Below, piece by piece: positions 5,669 through 20,757 of a DNA stretch of 32,625 nucleotides. This stretch comes from Eubacteriales Family XIII. Incertae Sedis bacterium (GTDB lineage Bacteria; Bacillota; Clostridia; Peptostreptococcales; Anaerovoracaceae): the NCBI GenBank assembly GCA_031290135.1, contig JAITOE010000169.1:1-32625 (forward strand), read 5' to 3'. The notes under the pieces were generated by a model. The model saw only the letters and a program-made list of their open reading frames with translations, made no database searches and was not told the origin of the DNA. A program made the position numbers and the translations under genes. Each line of letters begins with the position of its first letter. Position 1 is the first letter of the stretch.

Positions 5669-5698
5669 GTTTTGCTCCATTTCTCTGTTAGGGTTTCT

Positions 5699-7684
5699 TC
5701 ATTTACGGTTTAGGGGTATTGCCCGTCCGGCGGACGGACCGTTTATTTTTTGCAGCCGCCGGTAAATCGTGCTTCTGGCCAAACCAAGCTGTCTGGCGGC
5801 GCCGGCGATGTTGCCGCCGCAGCCCCGTATCACATCTGCAAGATATTCAGCCGCAATTTCTTTTTCCGGCAACGGGGCGGAAGCACCCGGAAGACGGCCC
5901 GGCTTGGCGTGTATGGAAACGTAATCTTTCAAATGCTGCACGACGTCCAAACTGAGCACGCTGGCGCTGTAAACGACATTTTTCAGCTCCCGCACGTTGC
6001 CCGGCCAGGAATGCTTTTGTATATGCCGCAGATCCTCCTGTGAAATGCTGCAATCCGCATCCGTGTACAGCAAGCTGAAACGGGAGATGAGGCCGGCAAG
6101 ATCGTCAAAGCGTTCCCGCAGCGGCGGTATGTTGATCTGGATCACGGTAAGGCGGAAATATAAATCGGCGCGGAACTGCTTTTTCTCGATCAATTCCGGC
6201 AAATCGGCATTCGCGGCGCAAATGATGCGCACGTCGATGGGGACAGAGCGGTTGCTGCCCAGGCGGAACAGCTCTTTTTCTTCCAGGACGCGCAGCAAAT
6301 AGGTCTGGGCTTCGAAAGACAGCGCTTCGAGTTCATCCAGAAATATTGTCCCGCCGTTCGCGGCTTCGAATTTCCCGGTATTTCCCCTTGGCGAAGCCCC
6401 GGTAAAAGCACCGGGCGCGTATCCGAAGAGTTCGCTCCCGATCAGCTCTTTGGGAAAAGCGCCGCAATTGACTGCCACGAACGCTTTGTTCGCGCGGTTG
6501 CTGCGCTCGTAAATCATTCGCGCAAACACTTCCTTGCCGACGCCCGTCTCCCCGAACAGGACCACGGACGCATCCGAAGGCGCCACCTTGACGGCGGTGC
6601 GCAAGGCCGTAAGGAAAGCCGGGTTTTCCCCGACAATGCCTCCGCTTTGTTTGACGTTCAAGACAGGCGCGTGGAGGTCTGCTCCGGCGGAACGCCCTGC
6701 GGACACGATCAGGCCGATATAGTCATCGCCCTTGTAAACAGGCGAAAATTCAAGGGAATATCCGTCTGCTTCATCCACCCCGATGGCATTTTCGGCGGTT
6801 TTTTGCTCAAACAGGAAGCGGAGGTTGGCTTTTTTGGCAGCCTTACAGACAGCAGGGCTCAATTTTCTGCTGTTCGGCAAAACGTTGGACAATAAGGGGT
6901 GCTGGTTTTTGGAAGACGCAACGACCTGTAGATCCGTGTCCGCGGCAAAAATTAAATCAGCGTCATAGCGTTTTACCGCGTCCCGGAACCTTGCTAAGAG
7001 CGTTTGCAGCATTTCCGCGTAGGCAAAGAAATAGTTGCTTTCAATTGTGCGGGCGACGAACGTGAGCATGCCCATGGTATCGGACGAAATCTCCAAACCG
7101 TCCCCGGACAAGGCAAAAATGCCTTTTAGTTCTTTCGTCCAGGTGTTCATGATGGGCACGGCGGCGCAATTGCAGGTTTTCGCCAGCTGTGTGTAATGCT
7201 CGTAACCATAGACCGCATAGGGGGAGCGGCTGTTTTTTGCCATGGAAACACCCGTTGTGCCTGTGTGCTTTTCGTTCAAAATGGCGCCCGGCAGGATGCT
7301 TTGGCATTTCGCGTCTTCTTCACCCATGGATCCGCAGGCCAGCATGCGGATGATCACGGTGTCTTCGTTGCAGAGATTGATGATATTATTGGTTTTGCCG
7401 CGTTTTTTAAGCAAGTCGGCAAACTCGTCGAGGACAGGCTGCGCCGCGCCAATCAGCATCGCGTTCCGCACAATCAGCTTGGCCATGTCTTTTTCGTTCA
7501 GGACCAGCTTGGCGCCCGACTCGGAATAAGAAAGCCCGTTTTCAAAAGATTTCTTCCAGGAACGAAGCACTTCGTCGCGGACGGACAGGCCTTTGATGTC
7601 GCCGGTTTCAATGAATTTTTTCCATTCGCGCTTCACAAGGGCAACATATTTTCCGGGCTCGTCCCAATAATTCACGTTCGTCAT
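5699..7684 (-). CDS. Sigma-54-dependent transcriptional activator, AcoR type
   Basis: An enhancer-binding protein that would drive sigma-54 RNA polymerase by ATP hydrolysis. The N-terminal ~200 residues are a GAF-like sensor of the AcoR kind (SVRDEVLRSW near the start, EKHTGTTGVSMA further in), followed by a PAS-like segment. The AAA+ domain has Walker A GETGVGKE, the sigma-54 contact loop GAFTGA, Walker B GGTIFLDE and an Arg-finger region FRADLYFRL. The C terminus is a Fis-type helix-turn-helix (GNIAGAARQLGLARSTIYRRL). I take ATG at 7684 (661 residues); an in-frame GTG at 7738 would add 18 atypical residues. A strong sigma-A promoter lies upstream. It is the only sigma-54 activator in the window, so it is the best candidate regulator of the divergent promoters near 17 kb as well as of its own operon. 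That link is inference. Confidence 0.93.
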   Translation of the reverse strand: MTNVNYWDEPGKYVALVKREWKKFIETGDIKGLSVRDEVLRSWKKSFENGLSYSESGAKLVLNEKDMAKLIVRNAMLIGAAQPVLDEFADLLKKRGKTNNIINLCNEDTVIIRMLACGSMGEEDAKCQSILPGAILNEKHTGTTGVSMAKNSRSPYAVYGYEHYTQLAKTCNCAAVPIMNTWTKELKGIFALSGDGLEISSDTMGMLTFVARTIESNYFFAYAEMLQTLLARFRDAVKRYDADLIFAADTDLQVVASSKNQHPLLSNVLPNSRKLSPAVCKAAKKANLRFLFEQKTAENAIGVDEADGYSLEFSPVYKGDDYIGLIVSAGRSAGADLHAPVLNVKQSGGIVGENPAFLTALRTAVKVAPSDASVVLFGETGVGKEVFARMIYERSNRANKAFVAVNCGAFPKELIGSELFGYAPGAFTGASPRGNTGKFEAANGGTIFLDELEALSFEAQTYLLRVLEEKELFRLGSNRSVPIDVRIICAANADLPELIEKKQFRADLYFRLTVIQINIPPLRERFDDLAGLISRFSLLYTDADCSISQEDLRHIQKHSWPGNVRELKNVVYSASVLSLDVVQHLKDYVSIHAKPGRLPGASAPLPEKEIAAEYLADVIRGCGGNIAGAARQLGLARSTIYRRLQKINGPSAGRAIPLNRK

Positions 7685-7766: not shown

Positions 7767-7795
7767 ATTATACTATAATTTTCAATAATTTTCAA
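7767..7795 (-). promoter_or_regulatory. Sigma-A promoter of the sigma-54 activator operon
   Basis: Read on the minus strand: TTGAAA (7795-7790), a 17-base spacer, then TATAAT (7772-7767), in an AT-rich stretch. The -35 box overlaps the last codons of the epoxide hydrolase gene. It would start transcription near 7760, about 75 bases before the activator start codon. Confidence 0.7.
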
Positions 7796-8948: not shown

Positions 8949-8995
8949 AGGGGCCTCCGTGTTTTCTGTGGATCCGTCGATTAGACAGAAACAAC

Positions 8996-9017
8996 CACGC
9001 TGCCCGAAAGCAGCGTG
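8996..9017 (-). terminator. Rho-independent terminator after the ABC importer operon
   Basis: A perfect 8-bp stem (CACGCTGC/GCAGCGTG) with a 6-base loop, followed on the minus strand by the T-rich tract GGTTGTTTCTG. It lies 38 bp beyond the stop codon of the substrate-binding protein gene. Confidence 0.75.
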
Positions 9018-9054
9018 ATTGAAGTGAAACGCTTAGAAAAGGGGTGGCAGGGAT

Positions 9055-10464
9055 CTAATCGTTCTCGTGCAGTTTGTTGTACTCAGGAATGGAGAGCGGG
9101 GTCCACGGGTCGTACAGGGCGAACGTTCCTTCGACTTGCGTTTCGGGGGCTGTCGGATAATATTGATCCACGTTTTCTTTCGTGATGGCCATCGTCGGCA
9201 TGAAAGAAGTCCCCGGCAGGTTGTTGTAATACACGTTTGCCTTTTCCGGCGTGTTGGCGCTTTCCGATACGCCGGGGCGGCCGCCCACCAGAAGATCATA
9301 GATGATATCGACCATTGTGGTGGCAGGCACAAAGGGGATGTTCGTGGACGTAGCCATAAGCTCGCCGGTTCTGATGTAATCCAGCGCGGCCCGCGCAGCG
9401 TTGCCGCAGGTCACGACGAAGATATCCTCACCGGGTTTTTTGCCCTGCTGCTTACATTCCTGTATGGCGCCGTAGCCCATGGAATCCATCTCCACGACGA
9501 TGATGTCCGTGTCGTTGTTGCTGGTCAGATGATCCGCAGTGGCCTGCTGCCCCTTTGCGACGTCAAGTCCTTCGCCGACTCCGAGCCAGGCAAGATCAAG
9601 CCCCTTGTCCGTCAGGTCGTACTTACGGGTGTTTTTGAAGGCGCTCCAAATATTATACGCCTCCAGAATGGCGTCGTATTTCGACGCATAGGGGTTGCCG
9701 TCGATTTCGGCTGCCTTGGAGAGATAACCCGCGATCCATCCGCAGGGGCGGCTGTTGGAGTCGGCGTCTTCAAGCTTGGCGATGACAAAACCGACTTTCA
9801 GCACTTCGCCTTTCTTGTAAAGCTGTGCGGCGGTGTACTCGCCGACCTGGAACCCGGCTTCGTTGGAGCCTGAGATGATGGACGTGATCAGCTGGTATTC
9901 AGGCCGTGCGGCCGTGGGACCGGTCACAACGATAGGGATGCCCTTGTCCGCGACTTCTTTGATAATTTGAGACTGCGCGTGAAGGTCAACGGCGTTCAGG
10001 ATGAGCGCGTCGATTTTCTGCGTGACAAAGTTTTCGATCTGCTCATTCTGTGTTTCAAGGCTGAGATCCGCGCTTTGCAGAATAATGGGATTCATGCCCA
10101 AGCGCGCCGCTTCGGCCTGCGCGGAGTCCCGAAGCCCCTCAAAGAATTCGCTGCCTAACTGGGACGCGGCCCATGCCACCTTCAGATCCTTTACATCCTT
10201 CGCGCCAGGCAGCGGAAGACCTTTCGGAATCGATTCGCGGGACGCGTATTCCTTTGGCTGGATGCCGGAAAGCGCAAGCGCGGACTCCGGGTTCTCCAGC
10301 AGCTTCATGATCTGGTCATAGGACGACAGGGTTTCATCCGTGTCGGCGGCAGAGTCGCTGCCCGTGGTATCGGCCGGCGGCGCGTCCGGGGTGGCGGTAC
10401 AGCCTACGAAAACGAGCGAGAAAACCAAAAACAGCGATAGGGCAAAAACAATCCTTCTTTTCAT
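9055..10464 (-). CDS. Sugar-type ABC transporter substrate-binding lipoprotein
   Basis: A 469-residue extracellular binding protein of the ribose/galactose periplasmic-binding fold (type I). It opens with a signal peptide (MKRRIVFALSLFLVFSLVFVG) ending in a lipobox before Cys22, so it should be anchored to the outer face of the membrane. A Thr/Ser/Asp/Pro-rich linker follows. The binding domain begins near residue 90 (DLKVAWAASQLGSEFFEGL) and contains IDALILNAVD and GIPIVVTGP, typical of this fold. It is longer than most ribose-binding homologues (~310-360 residues), with a long N-terminal extension and insertions. The start is ATG with GGAGGA upstream. It is last in the importer operon, 83 bp after the permease gene; that gap holds two short imperfect stems. 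The ligand is not identifiable; a sugar, polyol or sugar-like compound is the family expectation. Confidence 0.9.
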   Translation of the reverse strand: MKRRIVFALSLFLVFSLVFVGCTATPDAPPADTTGSDSAADTDETLSSYDQIMKLLENPESALALSGIQPKEYASRESIPKGLPLPGAKDVKDLKVAWAASQLGSEFFEGLRDSAQAEAARLGMNPIILQSADLSLETQNEQIENFVTQKIDALILNAVDLHAQSQIIKEVADKGIPIVVTGPTAARPEYQLITSIISGSNEAGFQVGEYTAAQLYKKGEVLKVGFVIAKLEDADSNSRPCGWIAGYLSKAAEIDGNPYASKYDAILEAYNIWSAFKNTRKYDLTDKGLDLAWLGVGEGLDVAKGQQATADHLTSNNDTDIIVVEMDSMGYGAIQECKQQGKKPGEDIFVVTCGNAARAALDYIRTGELMATSTNIPFVPATTMVDIIYDLLVGGRPGVSESANTPEKANVYYNNLPGTSFMPTMAITKENVDQYYPTAPETQVEGTFALYDPWTPLSIPEYNKLHEND

Positions 10465-10547: not shown

Positions 10548-11588
10548 CTATTCGGTTGCTTTGGAGCTGATGCTCTTCAGCAATACGGCCAAAATGATGA
10601 TGAGAGCCTTGACTACGAGCTGCGGGTATACGCCGAGGCTGACCAAGTTCATGATATTGCCGATGATGGCAAGCACAAATATGCCGACAACCGTCATAGG
10701 CACGTTGCCTTCGCCGCCCTTCAGGCTTGCGCCGCCGATGACGACAGCCGCGATGGACGTCATGTCATAGCTGACGGAGGTGGAAAGGGCTGTCGCGCTG
10801 CCGGTCCTCGCCGCGAGGATGATGCCGGCGACGCCGCAGAGCGCGCCGCAAATCGCATAAGCCCAATATTTATATTTTTTTGAATTGACGCCCGCAAGCT
10901 GGACGGCGGTCTCGTTGCTCCCCACTGCGGTGATGAGACGCCCGAACGCCGTGTAGTGCAGAACGAGGCCGATGACGACGATCAAAGCGAACATCACGTA
11001 GGCCGGATACGGAATATGGAACAGCGGATCGGCTCCGGTCGCGAAGCCGACGAGAACGGAAACGGCAGGAACCGCCTGATCCAGCAGGATGGTGTTCGCG
11101 TCCGTGATGATGAACGCGAGGCCCTTTCCGGCGTACATCATCGCCAGGGTTACGATGAAGGCCGGCATGTTCAGATACGCCACAAGCAAGCCGTTGACGG
11201 AGCCGAGGGCAAAGCCGAACACGACGGCCATGATCACGGAAACGAGCAGCCCCCAGGACTGGTTTTGCAGGCCCATGGGCTTGAGGCAGTAACACACGAT
11301 GATGCTGCTCACGGCGACCATCGAACTGACGGAAAGATCGATGCCTCCCGTAAGCATGACCAACAGCATGCCGAGTGCCACAAGCATGAACGCCGATTGC
11401 TGCCGCAGGATGTTGACCATATTTTCCGGAGACAGGAACACATCGGAGATGATGGTCGCGACAATGAACATGAGCACGAGCAGCACGATTGCGTTGTATT
11501 TAAACAACAAACGGACAAAACGGCGGCTCGTCTCCAGGTTCCCTTCTCTCATGGAACCTGACGGATCTGCGTTTGTTAACATCGGCAT
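10548..11588 (-). CDS. ABC transporter permease, RbsC/branched-chain type
   Basis: A membrane permease of ~346 residues in the ribose/xylose/AI-2 family, with about ten hydrophobic segments spread along the chain. The conserved ALGMLLVMLTGGIDLSVSS segment and the loop AGVNSKKYKYWAYAICG are characteristic. I take ATG at 11588 (MPMLTNADP) because a GGAGGAG sequence lies just upstream; an upstream in-frame start would add ten residues and put that ribosome binding site inside the gene. It is the middle gene of ATPase-permease-binding protein, 117 bp after the ATPase gene, and a copy of the dispersed repeat lies in that gap. It probably works as a homodimer with the double-domain ATPase next to it. 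Confidence 0.9.
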   Translation of the reverse strand: MPMLTNADPSGSMREGNLETSRRFVRLLFKYNAIVLLVLMFIVATIISDVFLSPENMVNILRQQSAFMLVALGMLLVMLTGGIDLSVSSMVAVSSIIVCYCLKPMGLQNQSWGLLVSVIMAVVFGFALGSVNGLLVAYLNMPAFIVTLAMMYAGKGLAFIITDANTILLDQAVPAVSVLVGFATGADPLFHIPYPAYVMFALIVVIGLVLHYTAFGRLITAVGSNETAVQLAGVNSKKYKYWAYAICGALCGVAGIILAARTGSATALSTSVSYDMTSIAAVVIGGASLKGGEGNVPMTVVGIFVLAIIGNIMNLVSLGVYPQLVVKALIIILAVLLKSISSKATE

Positions 11589-11651
11589 TTTCTCCTCCTT
11601 ATCAAAAATGCTTGCCATTTATGAATCTCAGATATAAACGGCGCCGCCGGT

Positions 11652-11705: not shown

Positions 11706-13205
11706 TTATATCCCCATCGCATAGTGGATCAGGGTTTCCTCAGTCATGTCTGCCTTGTTCACCACGCCGACGCTTTTTCCTTCCCGGAAGACGACGGCCC
11801 TGTCGCACATGCCTATGATTTCAATCATCTCGGACGAAATCATGAGGATCGCGTAATTTTGATAAACCAGTTCGTTGACGAGTTTGAAAATCTCCATCTT
11901 TGCGCCGACGTCAACGCCGCGCGTCGGCTCGTCGAGAATCAGGATGGTGCTGTCGGACGCGAGAATTCTGGCGATCGCGACCTTTTGCTGGTTGCCGCCG
12001 GAAAGGCTGTTGACGTTGTGCTGGAGATTGTCGGTCTTGATGCCGACTTTTTCCTGCATGTCAAGGGCAAAAACAGTTTCCGCCTTTTGAAGCAGCCAGC
12101 CGAAGAAAGCCGAGATTTTCTTTATGCTGGATAAAGTGATGTTGTATTTGATGGGCATGCGAAGCAGCACGCCTTGGTTTTTCCTGTCTTCCGGCAGAAA
12201 GCCTATGCCCCGGTCGAACGCGTCCTTGGCGGACTTGAGCCGGATTTCCTTCCCGTACAGACTGACTTTTCCCCGCTCCATCTTGTCCACGCCGAGAATC
12301 GCCCGGATCGTCTCCGTCCGTCCCGCGCCAACCAAGCCGGACAATCCAAGAACCTCCCCCGCGCGAAGCTCGAAAGAAACATCTTGCACCATTCTGCCCG
12401 CGGACACGTTCTCCACTTTCAGGACCACGTCCCCGAACTTCGATTCCGTGCGCTGCGGAAAAAATGACGCCAGGTCACGGCCTATCATCATGGACACGAG
12501 CGATTTAGGCTGCATGTCGGCGGTGTTGACCGTATCGACATATTTGCCGTCCTTAAATACCGTGATACGGTCCGAGATGCGGAAAATCTCCTCTAAGCGG
12601 TGTGAAATGTAGATAATTGCCACGCCGCTTTTTTTCAAGTCAAGGATCAACGCAAAGAGCTTGTCCACTTCCTTGTTTGTCAGCACGGCCGTAGGTTCGT
12701 CCAATACGAGTATCTCCGCGTTCCGCGTCAACGCCTTGCAGATTTCAACCACCTGTTGGTAGGCGACAGAAAGCTCCCGGACGGGAGTCCTTGGGTCGAT
12801 ATCCCCAAAACCGACGGCTTCCAAAGCCTCTTTTGCGCGCCGGTGCAGCCGTATCCAGTTAATGCGTTTGATCTGGAATCCAAATTCGTCGATGAAGATA
12901 TTTTCCGCCACGGAAAGATGGGGGACGAGGGCGAATTCCTGATAGATCACGGAAACGCCGTTGTCGTTCCCGTCCTTTGTATTTTTGATATCGACCTTTT
13001 CGCCTTTTATGAAAATCTCGCCTGCGTCCGCCTGGTGCGCCCCTGATAAAACCTTGATCAACGTGGACTTCCCTGCCCCGTTCTCGCCCATAAGCGCATG
13101 GATCTCACCCGGCCTCACGGACAGCTGGACGTCCGTTAAAGCGTGAACGCCCTCAAAACTCTTATAGATGCCTTTCATTTCAACAGCATATTCAGGTTTT
13201 TCCAT
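11706..13205 (-). CDS. Sugar-type ABC transporter ATP-binding protein (two nucleotide-binding domains)
   Basis: A 499-residue cytoplasmic ATPase of the RbsA/XylG/MglA type, with two fused ABC domains. The first has Walker A GENGAGKST, signature region LSVAYQQ (the usual Gly is Ala) and Walker B ILVLDEPTA. The second has the degenerate P-loop GLVGAGRTE usual for this family, signature LSGGNQQ and Walker B ILILDEPTRGVD. I start at ATG 13205 (MEKPEYAVEMKGIYKSFEG), where homology to the family begins. A TTG at 13277 would overlap the E1 beta stop and add 24 unlike residues. The GGAGG upstream is rather far (about 14 bases), so translation may be coupled to E1 beta, whose stop lies ~70 bp away. 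Placement behind the dehydrogenase E1 genes suggests that the imported compound feeds that complex. Confidence 0.92.
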   Translation of the reverse strand: MEKPEYAVEMKGIYKSFEGVHALTDVQLSVRPGEIHALMGENGAGKSTLIKVLSGAHQADAGEIFIKGEKVDIKNTKDGNDNGVSVIYQEFALVPHLSVAENIFIDEFGFQIKRINWIRLHRRAKEALEAVGFGDIDPRTPVRELSVAYQQVVEICKALTRNAEILVLDEPTAVLTNKEVDKLFALILDLKKSGVAIIYISHRLEEIFRISDRITVFKDGKYVDTVNTADMQPKSLVSMMIGRDLASFFPQRTESKFGDVVLKVENVSAGRMVQDVSFELRAGEVLGLSGLVGAGRTETIRAILGVDKMERGKVSLYGKEIRLKSAKDAFDRGIGFLPEDRKNQGVLLRMPIKYNITLSSIKKISAFFGWLLQKAETVFALDMQEKVGIKTDNLQHNVNSLSGGNQQKVAIARILASDSTILILDEPTRGVDVGAKMEIFKLVNELVYQNYAILMISSEMIEIIGMCDRAVVFREGKSVGVVNKADMTEETLIHYAMGI

Positions 13206-13273: not shown

Positions 13274-14248
13274 TCAATAAAACAGGGATTTGACTGCGCG
13301 GATGATCCGCTCTTCGTTGGGCTGGTAATGCTTTTCCAGGGCCCCGCTGAAAGGCACGGGCGTATAGGGCGCGCCGACCCTCTTGATAGGAGCGTCGAGA
13401 AAATCAAAACCCTTGTCCGCTATCATGGCGGCTATTTCGCCGCCGTAACCGCCCGTTTCCACGGCTTCGTGGGCGATGACGACCCGGCCGGTCTTTTCAA
13501 CGGACGCAAGGATGCCGTCTATATCCAGGGGGATCAGCGAACGCACGTCGATCACCTCGGCGTCGATGCCGTCTTTTTCCAGATCCGCCGCCGCCCTGAC
13601 GCATTTGTTCAAGGTATTGGCCCAGGAGAGTATGCTTACGTCTTTTCCCTCCTTTTTCAGTTCAATTTTCCCGAAAGGCACCGTGAACGCGCCTTCAGGC
13701 ACATCCCCGGTCATGGGGTTCAGCGCCTTGTGTTCCAGCACGATGACGGGATTGTTGTCCCGGATCGCCTGAGAAAGCAGGCCCTTCGCATCCCTTGGGT
13801 TCGAACTCGAAACCACCTTGAGGCCGGGAAGGTGGGTGAACAGGGCCTCCAGGCATTGTGAGTGCTGGGCCGCCGCCCCTATTTCGCCCCCGATGTTGGA
13901 CCGTATGGTAAGGGGCAGGCACATCTGTCCGCCGAGCATATAGGTCATTTTTGCGGCCTGGTTCATCACCTCGTCCATGCAGCAGCCCAGAAAATCGCAG
14001 AAGTCCAATGAAAGCACGGCTCTCAGGCCCATTGCCGAAGCACCTACGCCGAGGCTGACGATCTGTCCCTCGCTGATGGGCGTGTCCAGCACCCTTTCCC
14101 CGCCGAATTCTTCGTAAAGACCGCCGGTCTGGCCGAAAGAGCTGCCCATCAGAGCCACGTCCTCCCCCGCCACAAAGACCTTGGGATCCCGCAGCATTTC
14201 CTGTCTTTGCGCATCCCGTATCGCATTCACGTATGTCATGGTTGCCAT
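13274..14248 (-). CDS. 2-oxoacid/acetoin dehydrogenase E1 component, beta subunit
   Basis: A 324-residue E1 beta subunit of the pyruvate/acetoin dehydrogenase family. With E1 alpha it forms the thiamine-diphosphate heterotetramer that decarboxylates a 2-oxoacid, or cleaves an alpha-hydroxyketone such as acetoin, and passes the acyl group to the E2 lipoyl arm. Motifs: VFVAGEDVALMG near the N terminus, DTPISEGQIVSLGVGASAMGLR with the conserved Glu that contacts thiamine, GQMCLPLTIRSNIGG, and the C-terminal transketolase-like domain with VIDVRSLIPLD and EAVETGGYGGEI. The start is ATG with GGGTGG six bases upstream. It lies 60 bp after E1 alpha. Acetoin versus branched or pyruvate specificity cannot be settled by eye; the AcoR-type activator and sigma-54 promoters favour an acetoin-like role. 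Confidence 0.92.
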   Translation of the reverse strand: MATMTYVNAIRDAQRQEMLRDPKVFVAGEDVALMGSSFGQTGGLYEEFGGERVLDTPISEGQIVSLGVGASAMGLRAVLSLDFCDFLGCCMDEVMNQAAKMTYMLGGQMCLPLTIRSNIGGEIGAAAQHSQCLEALFTHLPGLKVVSSSNPRDAKGLLSQAIRDNNPVIVLEHKALNPMTGDVPEGAFTVPFGKIELKKEGKDVSILSWANTLNKCVRAAADLEKDGIDAEVIDVRSLIPLDIDGILASVEKTGRVVIAHEAVETGGYGGEIAAMIADKGFDFLDAPIKRVGAPYTPVPFSGALEKHYQPNEERIIRAVKSLFY

Positions 14249-14308: not shown

Positions 14309-15286
14309 TTACGCTTCGTCCGGCATGTACACAAAATCATACATGGATTCAGGGGAAGGGTCCGGGCTGCTTTCCGCAAAGGCCACGGAGGCCGATATCA
14401 CGTCGCGGACCTTGTTTTTCAAGCCGTCCAGCTCTTCGGCATTTGCGACTTTCTCTTTCAGAAGACGCGCTTCGAATCTCGGTATCGGATCCCGCTCTTC
14501 CGACAGCCAGAGCTTCTGTTCGGCGGGGTCCTTGTATGCGGCCGGATCGCCTATGTAATGCCCGTGATGCCGCCATGTGACACATTCGATGAGGCTTTGC
14601 CCTTTCCCGGACTTCGCCCGTTTGACCGCTTCATGGGTCGCTTCCTTTACGGCGACCGGATCGTTCCCGTCCACGGTGACGCCCGCGATGCCGTAGGCGG
14701 AAGCCCGGTCGGATATCCTTTTGAGCTTCATCGCACGGCCCTGCGGCGTGGACATGCCAAAGTGGTTGTTTTCACATATGAATATCGTCGGCAGGTTCCA
14801 GACGGACGCGAGATTCAACGCCTCGTGGAAAGTGCCCCGGTTGCTTGCCCCGTCGCCGAAGAACGCGACCGCCACGGCGTCCTTTTTCAGGTAGCGCAGC
14901 GCGAACGCGACGCCGTTCGTGATCGGGATGCTCGCCCCGACGATGCCGTTTGCGCCTATGATGCCCATGCCGATGTCCGCTATATGCATGGAACCGCTCT
15001 TTCCCTGGCTGTATCCCGTCGCCTTTCCGTATAATTCGGCCATCATCTTATGGATGTCGCCGCCTTTTGCGATGATGTGCCCATGGCCCCTGTGGGTGCT
15101 GCAGATGCAGTCTTCCTTTGTGAGCTCGCTGCATACCCCCGCCGCGATCGCTTCTTCTCCGGAATACAGGTGCAGGAAACCGCCGAGCTTGCCGCCCAGC
15201 ATCAGCTCCCTTGCCGTTTCCTCAAAGAACCGTATCCGCAGCATCGTTTCGTAAAGCGACAGATACGCGTCTTTTGTAAGTTTCAT
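14309..15286 (-). CDS. 2-oxoacid/acetoin dehydrogenase E1 component, alpha subunit
   Basis: A 325-residue E1 alpha subunit. The thiamine-diphosphate motif starts at GDGASNRGTFHEALNLAS and ends with the expected ENN. Upstream are YSGEEAIAAG, STHRGHGHIIAKG and SGSMHI; downstream is RHHGHYIGDP, the conserved active-site loop. I use ATG at 15286 (MKLTKDAYLSLYE) because GGAGG lies five bases upstream and homology starts there; the open frame continues upstream through repeat copy D but reads as non-homologous sequence. It is third in the operon after the SDR and VOC genes, with E1 beta next. Fine specificity is not determined. Confidence 0.92.
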   Translation of the reverse strand: MKLTKDAYLSLYETMLRIRFFEETARELMLGGKLGGFLHLYSGEEAIAAGVCSELTKEDCICSTHRGHGHIIAKGGDIHKMMAELYGKATGYSQGKSGSMHIADIGMGIIGANGIVGASIPITNGVAFALRYLKKDAVAVAFFGDGASNRGTFHEALNLASVWNLPTIFICENNHFGMSTPQGRAMKLKRISDRASAYGIAGVTVDGNDPVAVKEATHEAVKRAKSGKGQSLIECVTWRHHGHYIGDPAAYKDPAEQKLWLSEERDPIPRFEARLLKEKVANAEELDGLKNKVRDVISASVAFAESSPDPSPESMYDFVYMPDEA

Positions 15287-15301
15287 AAATGCCTCCGTTT
15301 T

Positions 15302-15335
15302 GTTACTATTCACAGTTGGTGTCCGTCTGGGGTGC
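15302..15335 (+). repeat. Dispersed repeat, copy D (short form)
   Basis: Starts with GTTACTATTC (as copy C on the other strand). It continues with a 27-nt block (15309-15335) matching 24 of 27 bases of 25953-25979, the right end of copy A. It looks like copy A with the middle ~170 bp missing. It lies between the VOC and E1 alpha genes. Confidence 0.7.
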
Positions 15336-15402
15336 GTCCCGCCGGTATGTCTCTCCGAATAGGCAATCCGGTATACCGAAAGGATGTCATCAGCGTGTGA
15401 AA

Positions 15403-15906
15403 TCATTTTTCGGGATACAGGAACGCCGGAGGCGGGCTTACAAAATCCGCCGGCGGATCGACCAACTCCGCGATGAAGCCGAGCTCCTTTGTCAAATCGA
15501 CGTAGGCGAACGCCATGCCCCCGCTGTCCATGCCGCCGAGCAGGGTGTCGACGCAGCCGCGTTCTGCCAGCCGCCCCTGGATGCCCTCATAGCCGTCTGC
15601 GGAACCTAGGCAGATGTGATGGATGCCCGGACCGTGTTTTTTCAGGAATTCAGCGTAGTCTCCGTTTTCGCTGAGCGGCTGGATCAGTTCGAGCTGTATG
15701 TTCAGGCTGTCGCATAGCCCAAGATACATCGCAAAACCTTCCGGCTGTCCGGCCACCACCATGTCCCTTGTGTTTTCAGGCGTAAAATGCAAGACTTTCC
15801 AGGGCCCGATGCCGTATTCGTCGTTATACCGTCTGATATAGGCGCGTATGTCATCGACGACGATGCTCACCTGCGCGATTTTGTCAAACAGAGGTTTCTG
15901 GCCCAT
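15403..15906 (-). CDS. VOC-family (glyoxalase/methylmalonyl-CoA epimerase-like) protein
   Basis: A 167-residue cytoplasmic protein of the vicinal oxygen chelate fold, made of two beta-alpha-beta-beta-beta modules. Likely metal ligands are Q12 (IAQVSIVVDD), E73 (QLELIQP), H97 (GIHHICLG) and E147 (GFIAELVD). The Gln in place of the usual first His is a variant of the epimerase/glyoxalase ligand set. The reaction is unknown; relatives epimerise acyl-CoAs, isomerise hemithioacetals or open rings. The start is ATG with AGGA eight bases upstream. It lies 18 bp after the SDR gene and 116 bp before E1 alpha. The gene order suggests that it acts on the SDR product or prepares the substrate of the E1 complex. 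Confidence 0.82.
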   Translation of the reverse strand: MGQKPLFDKIAQVSIVVDDIRAYIRRYNDEYGIGPWKVLHFTPENTRDMVVAGQPEGFAMYLGLCDSLNIQLELIQPLSENGDYAEFLKKHGPGIHHICLGSADGYEGIQGRLAERGCVDTLLGGMDSGGMAFAYVDLTKELGFIAELVDPPADFVSPPPAFLYPEK

Positions 15907-15924: not shown

Positions 15925-16713
15925 TTACAGTATGGTAAAGCCGCCGTCTATGGCGACTGCCACGCCGTTGATGTATGCGGATTCGCCGGACGCAAGAAAG
16001 GCGACCAAGTCCGCGACCTCTTCGGGTTCGCCGTATCGCTTGAGCGGCGTGCTGCTTTTATTGTTTTCTATCATGACCCTTGCAGCTTCGCTGTCATTGG
16101 ACGAATGTGCGCTGACGACCCGCCTGTGGAGATCCGTCATCACAAATCCGGGGCAAACCGCGTTTGCCCGCACGCCCAAGGGACCGAATTCCGCGGCGGC
16201 GTTTTTGGTAAGTCCGATTACCGCGTGCTTGGAAGCCACATAGTCGCTGCTGCCCGGCAGGGCGACGAGGCCGCCGATGGACGCCGTATTCACGATGGCG
16301 CCGCCCCCGTGCGTCTTCATAAACGCGATGGCGTATTTCATTCCGAGAAAAACGCTGTCCATGTTAACGGCCATGGTTTTGCGGAACAGTTCAAAGGGCA
16401 TTTCATCAAGGGGGCTGGAAAATCCCTCTATTCCGGCGTTGTTAAACAGGATATCCAATGCGCCGCAGGCGCCAACCGTATCGCCTACAAAAGCTTTCAC
16501 GTCTTCTTCCTTTGAGACGTCCGCCGTAAACAGCGTGACATGGCAGCCGGGGCTGCACCGGGCAATCGCGTTTTTCGTGTCCGCCAGGCCCGCCGCGTCC
16601 AGATCAACCAAGGACAGGTTTGCCGCGCCCTCGGCTGAAAATTTCAATGCCGCCGCGCGTCCGAAGCCTGCGGCGCCGCCTGTGATGATGGCAGTTTTGC
16701 CCTTCAGTTTCAA
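15925..16713 (-). CDS. Short-chain dehydrogenase/reductase (first gene of the E1 operon)
   Basis: A 262-residue classical SDR with the cofactor motif TGGAAGFG (11-18), an Asp at the end of the second strand (SLVDLD) favouring NAD, the NNAG motif, catalytic Ser plus YVASK, and the C-terminal INGVAVAIDGG typical of sugar, polyol or hydroxy-acid dehydrogenases. The start codon is TTG, supported by GAGGTGG four bases upstream; no ATG fits. It is first in the seven-gene operon and is probably transcribed from the sigma-54 promoter near 16.95 kb, which gives a leader of about 220 bases. A perfect hairpin (16728-16755) ends three bases before its ribosome binding site, so translation could be modulated. 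Confidence 0.9.
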   Translation of the reverse strand: MKLKGKTAIITGGAAGFGRAAALKFSAEGAANLSLVDLDAAGLADTKNAIARCSPGCHVTLFTADVSKEEDVKAFVGDTVGACGALDILFNNAGIEGFSSPLDEMPFELFRKTMAVNMDSVFLGMKYAIAFMKTHGGGAIVNTASIGGLVALPGSSDYVASKHAVIGLTKNAAAEFGPLGVRANAVCPGFVMTDLHRRVVSAHSSNDSEAARVMIENNKSSTPLKRYGEPEEVADLVAFLASGESAYINGVAVAIDGGFTIL

Positions 16714-16727
16714 GATACCACCTCGTT

Positions 16728-16755
16728 TTCAATTTTGGTTTCGTCCAAAATTGAA
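16728..16755. repeat. Perfect inverted repeat in the SDR leader
   Basis: TTCAATTTTGG (16728-16738), six-base loop, CCAAAATTGAA (16745-16755). The 11-bp stem has no mismatch. In the minus-strand transcript it would fold just upstream of the SDR ribosome binding site. No T-run follows on either strand, so it is not a standard terminator. Confidence 0.85.
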
Positions 16756-16900
16756 GCGCGCAAGCGCACGTAAATTGTTGGACGGACGGTTTGAAGACGA
16801 ACTCACAGCCCTCAAACCGTAGGCGGCGCAAGTGGATTGCAACCCCATGGCGGCTTAGTAAATCAGTACACCCATGCCTAAAGGCAGGGGAATGCGTGCC
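16745..16900 (+). mobile_element. Possible decayed 3' end of an IS200/IS605-like element (tnpB tail plus right end)
   Basis: On the plus strand the frame from 16745 to the stop at 16820-16822 reads PKLKRASARKLLDGRFEDEL then TALKP. It is followed by ~75 non-coding bases that end in the stem TGCC-TAAA-GGCA flanked by CC and GG (about 16871-16890). An inverted repeat ACGGTTTGA/TCAAACCGT (16788-16796 and 16812-16820) overlaps the end of the frame. A protein tail followed by structured right-end DNA with such a hairpin is how tnpB genes and their guide RNAs end. No catalytic or zinc-finger part of TnpB is present, so this is recognition by resemblance only. Confidence 0.3.
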
Positions 16901-16942
16901 GTCCGTTCATGATTGATCCGATAGCAAGATGACAATAATTAC

Positions 16943-16958
16943 AGCAAATAACATGCCA
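16943..16958 (-). promoter_or_regulatory. Sigma-54 promoter of the SDR-VOC-E1-ABC operon
   Basis: Read on the minus strand: TGGCATGTTATTTGCT. It fits the consensus TGGCAYG-N4-TTGCW at every defined position, with GG and GC exactly 12 bases apart. Transcription would start near 16931, giving a leader of ~220 bases before the SDR TTG start. Confidence 0.75.
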
Positions 16959-17032
16959 GAAAAGCCCAGTGGGCAAAAATGGCATATGATTCGCTTATGC
17001 AGCCACAGATCCTTCAGGACAGCCCGTGAAAG

Positions 17033-17083
17033 GTGTAGCGAAAAGTGTCGCGCCCGCAACGCTTGTGCAGCGAAGTGTTGCGC
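17033..17083. promoter_or_regulatory. Enhancer-like repeats, candidate binding sites of the sigma-54 activator
   Basis: Two direct repeats: GTGTAGCGAAAAGTGTCGCGC (split as GTGTAGCG at 17033-17040 and its continuation to 17053) and GTGCAGCGAAGTGTTGCGC (17065-17083), the second two bases shorter. A dyad is also present: CGCAACGCTT (17055-17064) and AAGTGTTGCG (17073-17082) around an 8-base centre, with one mismatch. The block lies ~75 bp from the minus-strand promoter and ~150 bp from the plus-strand one, suitable distances for an activator that works by looping. Confidence 0.5.
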
Positions 17084-17103
17084 GGAATATGGGCGGTTTT
17101 TAT

Positions 17104-17186
17104 GTTACTGTTATGAAACTTAGGTATATAGAACCGCCGCTGGGGGGCGGACATCTTGTCGTTGCGAGCGGAGCGAAGCAATCCAG
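17104..17186 (+). repeat. Dispersed repeat, copy B
   Basis: GTTACT (17104-17109), then 30 bases (17112-17141) matching 28 of 30 of copy A at 25788-25817. It ends in a TTGCGAGCGGAGCGAAGCAA-type palindrome (17162-17181), a sequence style seen as intergenic repeats in many bacterial genomes. It lies between the two sigma-54 promoters. Confidence 0.75.
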
Positions 17187-17229
17187 TTCCTGCCCTTGCG
17201 CCCGATTCATTTGCAGGACATGGATTTTC

Positions 17230-17245
17230 TGGCATATTCCTTGCG
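17230..17245 (+). promoter_or_regulatory. Sigma-54 promoter of the E2-E3-SDR operon
   Basis: TGGCATATTCCTTGCG: GG at 17231-17232 and GC at 17243-17244, spaced exactly 12 bases, with TGGCA and TTGC both intact. The last base (G) deviates from the usual A/T. Transcription would start near 17256, about 50 bases before the E2 start codon. Confidence 0.72.
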
Positions 17246-17308
17246 TAAAATATAAAAGGACAGTCTCTATAGGCGGAACGACAAGAACAAAAACAAAGGA
17301 GGCGGCGA

Positions 17309-18511
17309 ATGGCGGTTAAGCTTGTAATGCCCAAGCTCGGATTGACGATGAGCGAAGGCGAGGTGATGAACTGGCTGAAAAATGAAGGCGACGTGCTGAA
17401 AAAAGGCGATGAGATCGTGGAAATCCAGACCGAAAAGCTTACAAACGTCATTGCGTCCCCGGCAGACGGCATTCTGCTTCGGATTGTAGGCAGGGCAGGG
17501 GACTCGCTGCCGATTGCCGCCACGCTTGCCTATATCGGCGAGGCCGGAGAGATTTTACCGGACGGCGAAAGCGAAAATGCAAGCGAACATACAAGCGAAA
17601 ATGTAAGCGCAAATGTGAGCGAACGCGCCGGAAAAGAACGGATCAAGATCTCGCCCGCAGCCAGGGCGCTTGCGAAAAAGCTTCAGGTGGAATACGCCTC
17701 GATACAGGGGACGGGGCCGGGCGGGCGGATCGTCAAAGCGGACATAGAGGCGCGGGGAGAATCCGGCGGAAACGCGGCGGCATTTCAGGAAGCGGGGGCT
17801 GCCCCGTCCGAAAGGGCGTCCGGGACCATTCCCTACACCGGAATGCGGAAAGCCATCGGCGTCGGCATGCATGCGAGCTGGACGGATGCGCCGATGGTGA
17901 CGCACCACGTGTACGCCGATGTGACGGAGCTTCTGATTTTAAGGGAGCAATTGAATAAAGACAGGGAGGAAGAGGCGGTCAAGATATCCGTGCTGGACAT
18001 CTTCACGAAAATCATAGCGAAAACCCTCAAGGATTTTCCGATTGTCAACAGCAGGCTGACGGACAAGGAAATCCTCCTGCTTGGCGACGTCAATATCGGC
18101 ATCGCGGTCGCGCTTGACAAGGGACTGCTTGTCCCTGTCGTGAAAAACGCCGACCGGAAAAGCCTGTTTGAAGTCAGCCGGGAGATCAAGGAGCTGTCCG
18201 GCAGGGCAAGAAACGGCGCTTTGCGGAGCGATGAAATGCACGGCGGCACATTTACGATTTCAAGCATAGGGGGATATGGATCGGTTGATTTCTTCACGCC
18301 CATCATCAACCAGCCCGAGGCCGCCATACTGGGCATCTGCAGAACCCGGCAGATGCCTGCCGTGGTCGATGGGGAGATTGTCGTGCGCTCGCTCACGGGG
18401 CTGTCGTTCACTTTTGATCACAGGGTCATAGACGGCGCCCCGGCGGCGGAATTTTTGGCGCGCGTGCTGCACTATCTCAAGAATCCGGCAAGGGCTGTTT
18501 TCGAAGGCTGA
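17309..18511 (+). CDS. Dihydrolipoamide acyltransferase (E2) of the 2-oxoacid/acetoin dehydrogenase complex
   Basis: A 400-residue E2 core enzyme. An N-terminal lipoyl domain has the lipoylated Lys43 in EIQTEKLTNV. A flexible linker follows, then a peripheral-subunit-binding domain (RIKISPAARALAKKL to GRIVKADIEA, ~111-148), then the catalytic domain ending in DHRVIDGAPAAEF with His371 and Asp375. It accepts the acyl group from E1 and transfers it to CoA. The linker is partly encoded by a 12-bp tandem repeat (17570-17623). The start is ATG with GGAGG six bases upstream, downstream of the sigma-54 promoter. The stop lies 14 bp from E3. Only one lipoyl domain is present, as in acetoin-type and many Gram-positive E2s. 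Confidence 0.94.
   Translation: MAVKLVMPKLGLTMSEGEVMNWLKNEGDVLKKGDEIVEIQTEKLTNVIASPADGILLRIVGRAGDSLPIAATLAYIGEAGEILPDGESENASEHTSENVSANVSERAGKERIKISPAARALAKKLQVEYASIQGTGPGGRIVKADIEARGESGGNAAAFQEAGAAPSERASGTIPYTGMRKAIGVGMHASWTDAPMVTHHVYADVTELLILREQLNKDREEEAVKISVLDIFTKIIAKTLKDFPIVNSRLTDKEILLLGDVNIGIAVALDKGLLVPVVKNADRKSLFEVSREIKELSGRARNGALRSDEMHGGTFTISSIGGYGSVDFFTPIINQPEAAILGICRTRQMPAVVDGEIVVRSLTGLSFTFDHRVIDGAPAAEFLARVLHYLKNPARAVFEG
17570..17623 (+). repeat. 12-bp tandem repeat in the E2 linker
   Basis: Four degenerate 12-base units plus a partial fifth, each starting AGCG and reading SENA, SEHT, SENV, SANV, SE. It encodes the flexible linker between the lipoyl and binding domains, so copy number could vary without harming the fold. 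Confidence 0.85.
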
Positions 18512-18525
18512 AAAGGAGGCGAAAC

Positions 18526-19926
18526 ATGAAGCGGATTGTGGTCGTCGGCGGCGGGCCGGGGGGGTATGTGGCGGCAATCAGGGCGGCCCAGCTGGGCGCG
18601 GAGGTCCATCTGGCGGAAAACAGCCGTCTGGGCGGCACCTGCCTCAATGTCGGGTGCATCCCCGCGAAAGCGCTGCTGCATGCCGCATTTTTCTATAAAC
18701 ACGCAAGGGCGAACCGCGTCGCGGGCGTGAAAATAGACGGCGTCCGTCTGGACTGGCAGGCGCTGCAACAGGAAAAACAGAAGATCACAGACAGGCTGGC
18801 CGGCGGCGTAGGCGGCCTTCTGAAAGCCAACAAGGTGACGGTACACAATGGCACCGCAAGCTTGTCGGCGGGCGGGCAAAACGGCTTGCAATCCGTCTCG
18901 GTGAACGGCAAGGCGCTGCCCGCGGCGGACGCTGTCATACTTGCAACGGGTTCCGTTCCGGTAAAACTGAATTTCCCCGGCGCCGATCTGCCCGAGGTAA
19001 TAGACAGCACGCAGGCGCTGTCCCTCAAGCAAGCGCCGGCCTCCCTGCTCATCGTGGGCGGCGGCGTGATAGGCGTGGAATTTGCGTCCCTGTACGCCGC
19101 CTTGGGATCCAAGGTGACGATTGTTGAAATGGCGCCGGAGATACTGCCGTCCTTTGACAGACAGGCCGCAGTTTTACTGCGCGGCGCGCTGGCGAAGGCG
19201 TCCGTCGATGTTTTTACGGGCGCGGCATTCACGGCAGTCAAAAAAAGCAAAGGCGGCCATGTCGTTTCAGAGATAGAGGTTGCCGGGGAAAAAAGGACCG
19301 TTGAATCCGAATGGGTGCTTGTGGCCGTCGGGAGAAAACCCTGTACGGGCGGCATCGACCTGGAAGGCGCAGGCGTCAAAACGGACAGAGGCGCCGCGGT
19401 CGTGGACGGCAATTTTGAAACGAGCCGCAAGGGCGTGTTCGCCGTGGGGGACTGCAACGCGAAGATCATGCTGGCGCACGCGGCGTCCGCGCAGGGGGAA
19501 GCGGCGGCGGCGTATATATTGGAAGGCAGGCACCATTACAACGGGAACGTGATTCCTGGCTGCGTGTATACCGAGCCTGAGATTGCCGCCGTGGGTTTGA
19601 CCGAGGCGCAGGCAAAAGAAAGAGGCATTGACTGCGTCTGCGGCATATTCGACCTGAGCGGGAACGGCAAGTCCCTGATCAGCGGTGACAACACCGGCTT
19701 TGTCAAGATCGTAGCGGACAAGGAACTCGGTGAAATCATCGGCGTCCATATGATGGGACCGGGCGTGACCGACATGATCGGGGAAGCGGCGGCCGTGATG
19801 TCGATGGAAGGCGTCGTGGAAGATCTTGTCCGCACGATCCACGCGCACCCCACGGTCAACGAAGCCATTCACGAGGCGGCGCAGGCGGTGTTCGGAAACG
19901 CTGTCCACTGGCCGCCGCGGATGTAA
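18526..19926 (+). CDS. lpdA: Dihydrolipoyl dehydrogenase (E3)
   Basis: A 466-residue FAD/NAD disulfide oxidoreductase that reoxidises the dihydrolipoyl arm of E2 and makes NADH. FAD motif VVVGGGPGGYVAAIRAAQLG begins at residue 5; the redox pair is C39 and C44 in GGTCLNVGCIPAK; the NAD motif is IVGGGVIGVEFASLYAALG; the second FAD motif is GVFAVGDC; the catalytic dyad is H441 and E446 in HPTVNE. There is no N-terminal lipoyl domain. The start is ATG with AGGAGG nearby, 14 bp after E2. The stop lies 36 bp before the next SDR. Its place beside E2, with E1 divergently encoded, indicates a dedicated E3 for this complex. Confidence 0.95.
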   Translation: MKRIVVVGGGPGGYVAAIRAAQLGAEVHLAENSRLGGTCLNVGCIPAKALLHAAFFYKHARANRVAGVKIDGVRLDWQALQQEKQKITDRLAGGVGGLLKANKVTVHNGTASLSAGGQNGLQSVSVNGKALPAADAVILATGSVPVKLNFPGADLPEVIDSTQALSLKQAPASLLIVGGGVIGVEFASLYAALGSKVTIVEMAPEILPSFDRQAAVLLRGALAKASVDVFTGAAFTAVKKSKGGHVVSEIEVAGEKRTVESEWVLVAVGRKPCTGGIDLEGAGVKTDRGAAVVDGNFETSRKGVFAVGDCNAKIMLAHAASAQGEAAAAYILEGRHHYNGNVIPGCVYTEPEIAAVGLTEAQAKERGIDCVCGIFDLSGNGKSLISGDNTGFVKIVADKELGEIIGVHMMGPGVTDMIGEAAAVMSMEGVVEDLVRTIHAHPTVNEAIHEAAQAVFGNAVHWPPRM

Positions 19927-19962: not shown

Positions 19963-20757
19963 ATGATGGTATTTGATTTTACGGGAAAAAAAGCGATTGT
20001 CGTCGGGGGCGGTTCCGGCATCGGAAAAGCAATCGCCCTGCAGCTCGCGGACAACGGGGCGGACGTATGGATTGGCGACCTGTCTGAAAACGGCGCCCAA
20101 ACGACCGTTTCGGAAATGCGGCGCTACAAGGGGGACTATGGGCATACCGTGACAGACGTGGCAAAAAAAACGGATGTGGCCGCACTGTTCGCGGACGCAA
20201 AAAAGCAGTTCGGGGAGATCAACATCGTTGTGAACAGCGCGGGCGTATTCATGCCCAAGGGTCTTTTGGAAGCCGCGCCGGAAGAGATAAAAGCGCATTT
20301 GGACATCAATTTAATGGGGATCATCTACGGCTGCCAGCTTGCGCTTGAAACCATGATCGCACAGGGGAAAGGCGGCAAGATTGTCAACATTTCTTCTGTG
20401 GGGGGACGCGGCGGCGAGTTAAAATCGCCTTATTACGCCCTAGGGAAAGGCGCTGTCCTCAACTGGACGCAGTCCGTGGCGTACAACGGGGCGCCGCACG
20501 GCATCAACTGCAACGCGATCTGTCCGGGAATCATCCGCACGCCGATGTGGGACGTCATACTGGAGGCCGACGGCGGCGGCGATCCGTCCGTGGACAAAGA
20601 GGCGCTCTTCCATCAGATTGTCAAGGGACGCGCGCCGCTCGGCAGGGCGCAGACAGCGGAAGAAATGGCGTATGCGGCCGCGTTTTTCTGTTCCGGTTAC
20701 GCCGACGCGATTCTTGGGCAGGCGCTTAATGTGGACGGCGGGGACAGAATGAATTAA
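19963..20757 (+). CDS. Short-chain dehydrogenase/reductase (third gene of the E2-E3 operon)
   Basis: A 264-residue classical SDR: GGGSGIG cofactor motif (15-21), an Asp after the second strand (IGDLSENG) suggesting NAD, VNSAG in place of NNAG, catalytic Ser in NISSVGG and Tyr/Lys in YYALGKGA, and the C-terminal LNVDGG. It would interconvert a hydroxyl and a ketone; an acetoin/diol or sugar-type substrate is plausible from context. The start is ATG at 19963 or, equally, the next codon; GGAG lies ten bases upstream. Its stop overlaps the stop of the convergent alcohol dehydrogenase by four bases, so no terminator fits between the two genes. Confidence 0.9.
   Translation: MMVFDFTGKKAIVVGGGSGIGKAIALQLADNGADVWIGDLSENGAQTTVSEMRRYKGDYGHTVTDVAKKTDVAALFADAKKQFGEINIVVNSAGVFMPKGLLEAAPEEIKAHLDINLMGIIYGCQLALETMIAQGKGGKIVNISSVGGRGGELKSPYYALGKGAVLNWTQSVAYNGAPHGINCNAICPGIIRTPMWDVILEADGGGDPSVDKEALFHQIVKGRAPLGRAQTAEEMAYAAAFFCSGYADAILGQALNVDGGDRMN

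Follow-up and report, generated by a model that had tools for sequence, protein, structure and literature searches.

Divergent sigma-54 promoters predicted for the two halves of an acetoin-type 2-oxoacid dehydrogenase complex

The window, i.e., the whole stretch of 32,625 nucleotides that we analyzed, carries two gene rows that diverge from an intergenic gap of 595 bp (16714-17308), with SDR1-VOC-E1-alpha-E1-beta-ABC importer on the minus strand to the left and E2-E3-SDR2 on the plus strand to the right (Table 1), as a first-pass annotation of the same DNA had described. The full acetoin-dehydrogenase-type set is present, consisting of E1-alpha, E1-beta, a lipoyl E2 with an E3-binding domain, and E3. 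The label "acetoin" given in that annotation is only partly supported by the sequence: the enzyme set is of this type, E1 matched none of the aco-specific models, and in profile matches E1-alpha did not reach the cut-offs of the models for pyruvate E1 either. The plasmid records hold only E1 relatives at <60%, with generic annotation. The terminator-like hairpin behind the binding-protein gene probably marks the end of the left transcript, past the importer genes, and the activator is possibly made independently, since its gene has its own sigma-70-like promoter. Downstream of the activator gene are a molybdopterin hydroxylase fused to its own [2Fe-2S] domains and without an FAD domain (2843-5680) and, after it, a large Fe-S/FAD oxidoreductase (534-2801).

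Table 1. Features of the window and sigma-54 sites of related loci
Feature	Position	Strand	Remarks
Sigma-54 activator (EBP)	5699-7684	-	AAA+ with GAFTGA, Fis-type HTH; proposed activator for both promoters
Sigma-70-like promoter	7767-7795	-	TTGAAA-17-TATAAT, 11/12 match; upstream of activator gene
Terminator-like hairpin	8992-9021	-	13-bp stem; 3' of binding-protein gene
ABC importer substrate-binding lipoprotein (RbsB-like)	9055-10464	-	
ABC importer permease	10548-11618	-	
Ribose-type ABC importer ATPase	11706-13205	-	ORF open from 13277; ATG with ribosome-binding site at 13205
E1-beta	13274-14248	-	
E1-alpha, TPP-dependent 2-oxoacid/acetoin-type dehydrogenase	14309-15406	-	True start probably downstream of ORF start
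VOC/glyoxalase-superfamily protein	15403-15906	-	Weak methylmalonyl-CoA epimerase likeness
SDR1, SDR-family dehydrogenase	15925-16713	-	TTG start, GAGGTGG ribosome-binding site
Left sigma-54 -24/-12 element, TGGCATGTTATTTGCT	16943-16958	-	Faces SDR1-VOC-E1-ABC; SDR1 start 230 nt away
Third, weaker sigma-54-like match, TGGCATATGATTCGCT	16980-16995	+	Consensus-matrix and trained-matrix scans; doubtful
Candidate UAS cluster	17033-17084		Half-sites TGTAGC 17034, TGTCGC 17046, TGTTGC 17076
Right sigma-54 -24/-12 element, TGGCATATTCCTTGCG	17230-17245	+	Faces E2-E3-SDR2; E2 start 64 nt away
E2 dihydrolipoyl acyltransferase	17309-18511	+	Lipoyl, E3-binding, and catalytic domains
E3 dihydrolipoyl dehydrogenase	18526-19926	+	
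SDR2, SDR-family dehydrogenase	19963-20757	+	
Relative sigma-54 site before E1 operon, TGGCACGTTTGTTGCT	L103:8655 (G096)		
Relative sigma-54 site before E1 operon, TGGCATATTTATTGCT	L102:6510 (G006)		
Relative sigma-54 site before E1 operon, TGGCATGTTTATTGCT	L122:783 (G176)		
Sigma-54 site of ABC-importer operon, TGGCATAGTTTTTGCT	L103:4746 (G096)		

Two sigma-54 -24/-12 elements are located in the gap exactly where the first-pass annotation had placed them, each in the correct orientation and with a GG-to-GC spacing of 12. The left element fits TGGCAY-N5-TTGCW in full, and its site CTGGCATGTTATTTGCT is close to the Clostridiales sigma-54 consensus TTGGCATN5TTGCT; the right element fits except for the last base, which is G instead of W. 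Ranked with a consensus matrix, the left and right elements take places 1 and 2 in the 32.6-kb window, and the proposed sigma-54 ranking came out the same way with a second matrix, which gave 25.2 for the left element, 18.3 for the right, 15.0 for a third match in the same gap, and 10.8 for the next; this matrix was trained on other sites picked by the consensus, which makes its ranks less than fully independent. The third match was weighed as a secondary promoter, but with TCGC at -12 it was kept only as doubtful. Read each in its own direction, the 32-nt neighborhoods of the left and right promoters share 24 of 32 positions. The long leader in front of SDR1 (~217-230 nt) counts against the divergent-promoter model. 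Inside it, just 5' of the SDR1 ribosome-binding site, a perfect 11-bp AT-rich inverted repeat (TTCAATTTTGG-N6-CCAAAATTGAA, 16728-16755) could be a cis-acting RNA element; an Rfam scan of the window found no RNA element at the gathering score, and the gap gave one miRNA match below threshold (E=0.55), which has no meaning.

Over the 2.76-Mb genome, sites were ranked by pattern matching, with the reversed pattern as the control. TGGCAYN5TTGCW gave 13 matches, including the left site, against 1 for the control, which indicates that the genome truly uses the motif and places the left site clearly above chance. The looser pattern TGGCAN6TTGC, which includes both window sites, gave 38 matches against 18, and about half of this class could be chance. 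Many of the other matches in the genome lie near activator genes (contigs C6, C16, C32, C136, C153, C157, and C269). The left site is strong, and the right site is weaker and rests in part on its position, since its last base is G and its class stands only ~2:1 over background. A reading in which only the left element works, with the right match a relic or a chance occurrence and E2-E3-SDR2 expressed from a sigma-70 promoter or constitutively, draws on this weakness, i.e., the lower score (18.3 vs 25.2), the missing W at the last position, and the 18 control matches of the class. However, from the control frequency (18 in 5.5 Mb, both strands), only ~0.002 right-type matches are expected on one given gap strand, and first-order random sequences give 0.0005 at the matrix score of the right site. 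Furthermore, the site has the correct orientation, with a start and its good ribosome-binding site 64 nt further on, resembles the left promoter over the aligned neighborhood, and ends in G like the activator-adjacent sites on C136 and C157 of the same genome, and no sigma-70-like promoter is listed on the plus strand of the gap. We regard this reading as rather unlikely.

The genome contains one rpoN gene with an uninterrupted frame of 484 codons. It also encodes at least 14 essentially complete sigma-54 activator domains in addition to fragments; several lie where contigs end. The activator gene in the window, named earlier as the candidate regulator, indeed encodes an NtrC-type protein with a GAFTGA motif and a Fis HTH. 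Its description as "AcoR-like" agrees with the AAA+ domain and the HTH, but the N-terminal half is only weakly GAF-like, so that the label comes mainly from the gene context. This half has no Pfam match in the window activator, GAF included, and one orthologue shows a weak, below-cut-off GAF match (E=0.003), which would fit an AcoR-type sensor but does not prove one. A structure prediction from four orthologues was too poor for use (mean pLDDT 46.5), and the closest matches in named genomes (37-41%) cover the AAA+ part only and are not orthologues.

Among the 394 genomes sampled from the order, E2 of this kind (E<=1e-90) was found only in G006, G096, and G176, which belong to the same family and to two genera. 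In all three, E1-alpha, E1-beta, E2, and E3 are contiguous on one strand; the G176 locus is divided between two contigs, C15, which carries E1-E2-E3 as one block, and C64, which carries VOC and the beginning of E1-alpha. A strong sigma-54 site stands 5' of the VOC-E1-E2-E3 or E1-E2-E3 operon in each relative (Table 1); the G176 site was labelled "inside" a gene by the crude ORF caller, which had extended the VOC gene to an upstream start. Each relative also has an orthologue of the window activator (52-55% identity) next to its orthologous complex, and the recognition-helix core ARSTIYRR is the same in all of these activators. Sigma-54 sites also occur just before E1-alpha in a paralogous, more distant complex of the window's own genome (C6) and between an activator gene and E1 in the more distant homologous loci L112 and L113. 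The ABC importer row of G096 is orthologous to that of the window (73-81% identity) and has its own sigma-54 site. Enzyme and importer are thus both preceded by sigma-54 sites in an independent genome, which supports the proposed regulon and suggests that the importer belongs to it. In G176 (L105 and L122), a TRAP transporter lies behind its own sigma-54 site. The gene for its DctP-like solute-binding protein, which adjoins the activator locus (L122:9293-9431, contig C64), combines a sigma-54 site with an exact TGTCGC-N4-GCAACA palindrome; one type of transporter (TRAP or ABC) thus seems to replace the other in this regulon from species to species.

Because E1-E2-E3 is contiguous in the relatives, the divergent split, which the first-pass annotation had rightly set apart from a single operon, would be a rearrangement found only in the genome of the window. 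The simplest reading takes the window layout, in which E2-E3 faces away from E1 and E1 adjoins the importer, as the rearranged state. In a related E1 locus (L104:10242-12979, G014:C1), the E1-alpha match contains an in-frame TAA and the E2 match is partial and diverged; this locus may be degenerating or may have acquired another function.

The candidate upstream activator sequence (UAS) between the two promoters is degenerate, with a one-mismatch palindrome TGTCGC-N4-GCAACG at 17046-17061, and also holds a 20-nt direct repeat with a 32-bp period. Its distance is 75-126 bp to the -24 element on the left and 146-197 bp to that on the right, and sigma-54 upstream activator sites are typically 100-250 bp upstream (PMC6615313). 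Given these distances, the cluster could serve both promoters. Exact TGTNGC palindromes were found neither in the window nor genome-wide in its genome, only in the relatives, where three loci hold six exact TGTNGC-N4/7/8-GCNACA palindromes, compared with at most 2 for any of 29 permuted half-sites. All six are close to sigma-54 sites or to the activator start. The motif was first noticed in L102 and L103, and L122 then served as the test; two of the four exact N4/N7 matches in the whole of G176 fall in that 10-kb locus. One palindrome is the sole genome-wide N7 match of G006 and another is the sole N4 match of G176. The palindromes are similar to the TGT-N10-12-ACA sites of Clostridiales activators (PMC6615313), some with slightly longer spacers. 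An activator-binding cluster common to both promoters at 17033-17084 is rated plausible only, because the cluster in the window is degenerate. With at least 14 activators in the genome and a UAS degenerate relative to those of the relatives, one or both promoters, each sigma-54 dependent, might instead answer to a different activator encoded elsewhere, but the orthology of the local activator to the one beside the same complex in three relatives makes this quite improbable. A chimeric join in a fragmented draft (274 contigs, 89% completeness), at a gap carrying a >100-copy dispersed repeat where assemblers can misjoin, is an even less probable source of the divergent layout, since each half has its own promoter, both halves are orthologous to one G096 regulon, and a further rearrangement relative to G096, at the E1-beta-ABC junction in another part of the window, has left a normal operon junction.

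From the promoters, genes, rpoN, activator anatomy, and the conserved sites of the relatives, we favor, with a probability of about 0.75, a model in which two divergent sigma-54 promoters with a shared UAS drive both halves of the complex under the local activator, derived from a rearranged aco-type operon. The left promoter would transcribe SDR1-VOC-E1-alpha-E1-beta and the ABC importer, and the right promoter E2-E3-SDR2. The presumed regulator, the local activator, would most likely bind the TGTNGC half-site cluster, sense the substrate as the putative inducer through its N-terminal domain, and loop to sigma-54 polymerase at either promoter. As promoters of a well-known class in nitrogen and carbon control (sigma-54), the two would probably bring about joint expression of both halves of a single TPP/lipoyl dehydrogenase complex, along with the importer, and the earlier proposal of divergent sigma-54 promoters for these halves appears supported in outline by the sites, the machinery, and the relatives. 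The divergent layout itself would have arisen by rearrangement of a contiguous aco-type operon. More tentatively, and with the odds somewhat against it, a single central enhancer acting on promoters of different strengths and distances might fix the ratio of E1 plus importer to E2-E3; if so, the subunit stoichiometry of an aco-type complex would be tuned by promoter pairing and not by operon order.

In Bacillus, aco operons are known to be controlled by sigma-54 and AcoR (PMC4428206), and the same control has been predicted for Clostridium (PMC6615313). The window shares with these acoABCL operons the same type of sigma-54 promoter, a nearby GAFTGA activator, and E1-alpha-E1-beta-E2-E3. However, acoABCL forms one contiguous operon, whereas here E1 and E2-E3 are on opposite strands with separate promoters and an ABC importer is joined to E1. 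The Pelobacter carbinolicus acetoin cluster likewise includes an epimerase-family (VOC) protein, an SDR, a hydrolase, and AcoR, but its 28 genes all run in one direction (PMC3543383). In the case of Desulfovibrio vulgaris orp1/orp2, divergent sigma-54 promoters with palindromic sites between them are controlled by one enhancer-binding protein, but the genes are unrelated, each promoter has separate activator sites, and IHF is needed (PMC3897727). The Bacillus thuringiensis sox locus also has opposing sigma-54-controlled units with one activator, but they concern sarcosine oxidase genes and the activator gene lies between the promoters (PMC4941409). The orthologous loci of G096 (L103), G006 (L102), and G176 (L122, L105) have the enzymes, activator, and sigma-54 sites in common with the window, and G096 the importer as well, but their ABC (G096) or TRAP (G176) transporter stands behind its own sigma-54 site. 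The novelty is modest, since divergent sigma-54 operons under one activator and sigma-54/AcoR control of aco genes are already known. What stands out is solely the content of the two arms, each of which codes for half of a single obligate enzyme complex; this amounts to a familiar set of bacterial genes rearranged locally, with no new kind of control. Such a sigma-54/activator regulon would keep promoter control over both halves of an obligate multi-enzyme complex after operon break-up, and as a small regulon of enzyme, importer, activator, and candidate UAS it can be traced across species of a genome family.

A dispersed composite repeat is located between the UAS and the right promoter (17104-17186), and the spacer there is thus partly foreign in origin, another point against the model. 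Its sharp left end GTTACTGTTATGAAACTTAGGTATATA has 104 copies in the genome (<=3 mismatches) and its module TTGCGAGCGNAGCGAAGCAATC has 151 (<=1 mismatch), with 0 for the control in both searches, while the interior modules vary from copy to copy. It is possibly a REP/MITE-like element, and none was seen in the stretches fetched from the relatives. At the paralogous E1-alpha (46%) on C6 (L124:10263-10330, G000), the repeat end sits directly between the sigma-54 site and the gene. A second back-to-back sigma-54 pair of the same genome, with 140 bp between its elements (L125:8648-8819, G000:C32), is flanked by an M20-type peptidase gene on the left and an isochorismatase-family gene on the right, and the same contig carries an activator gene.
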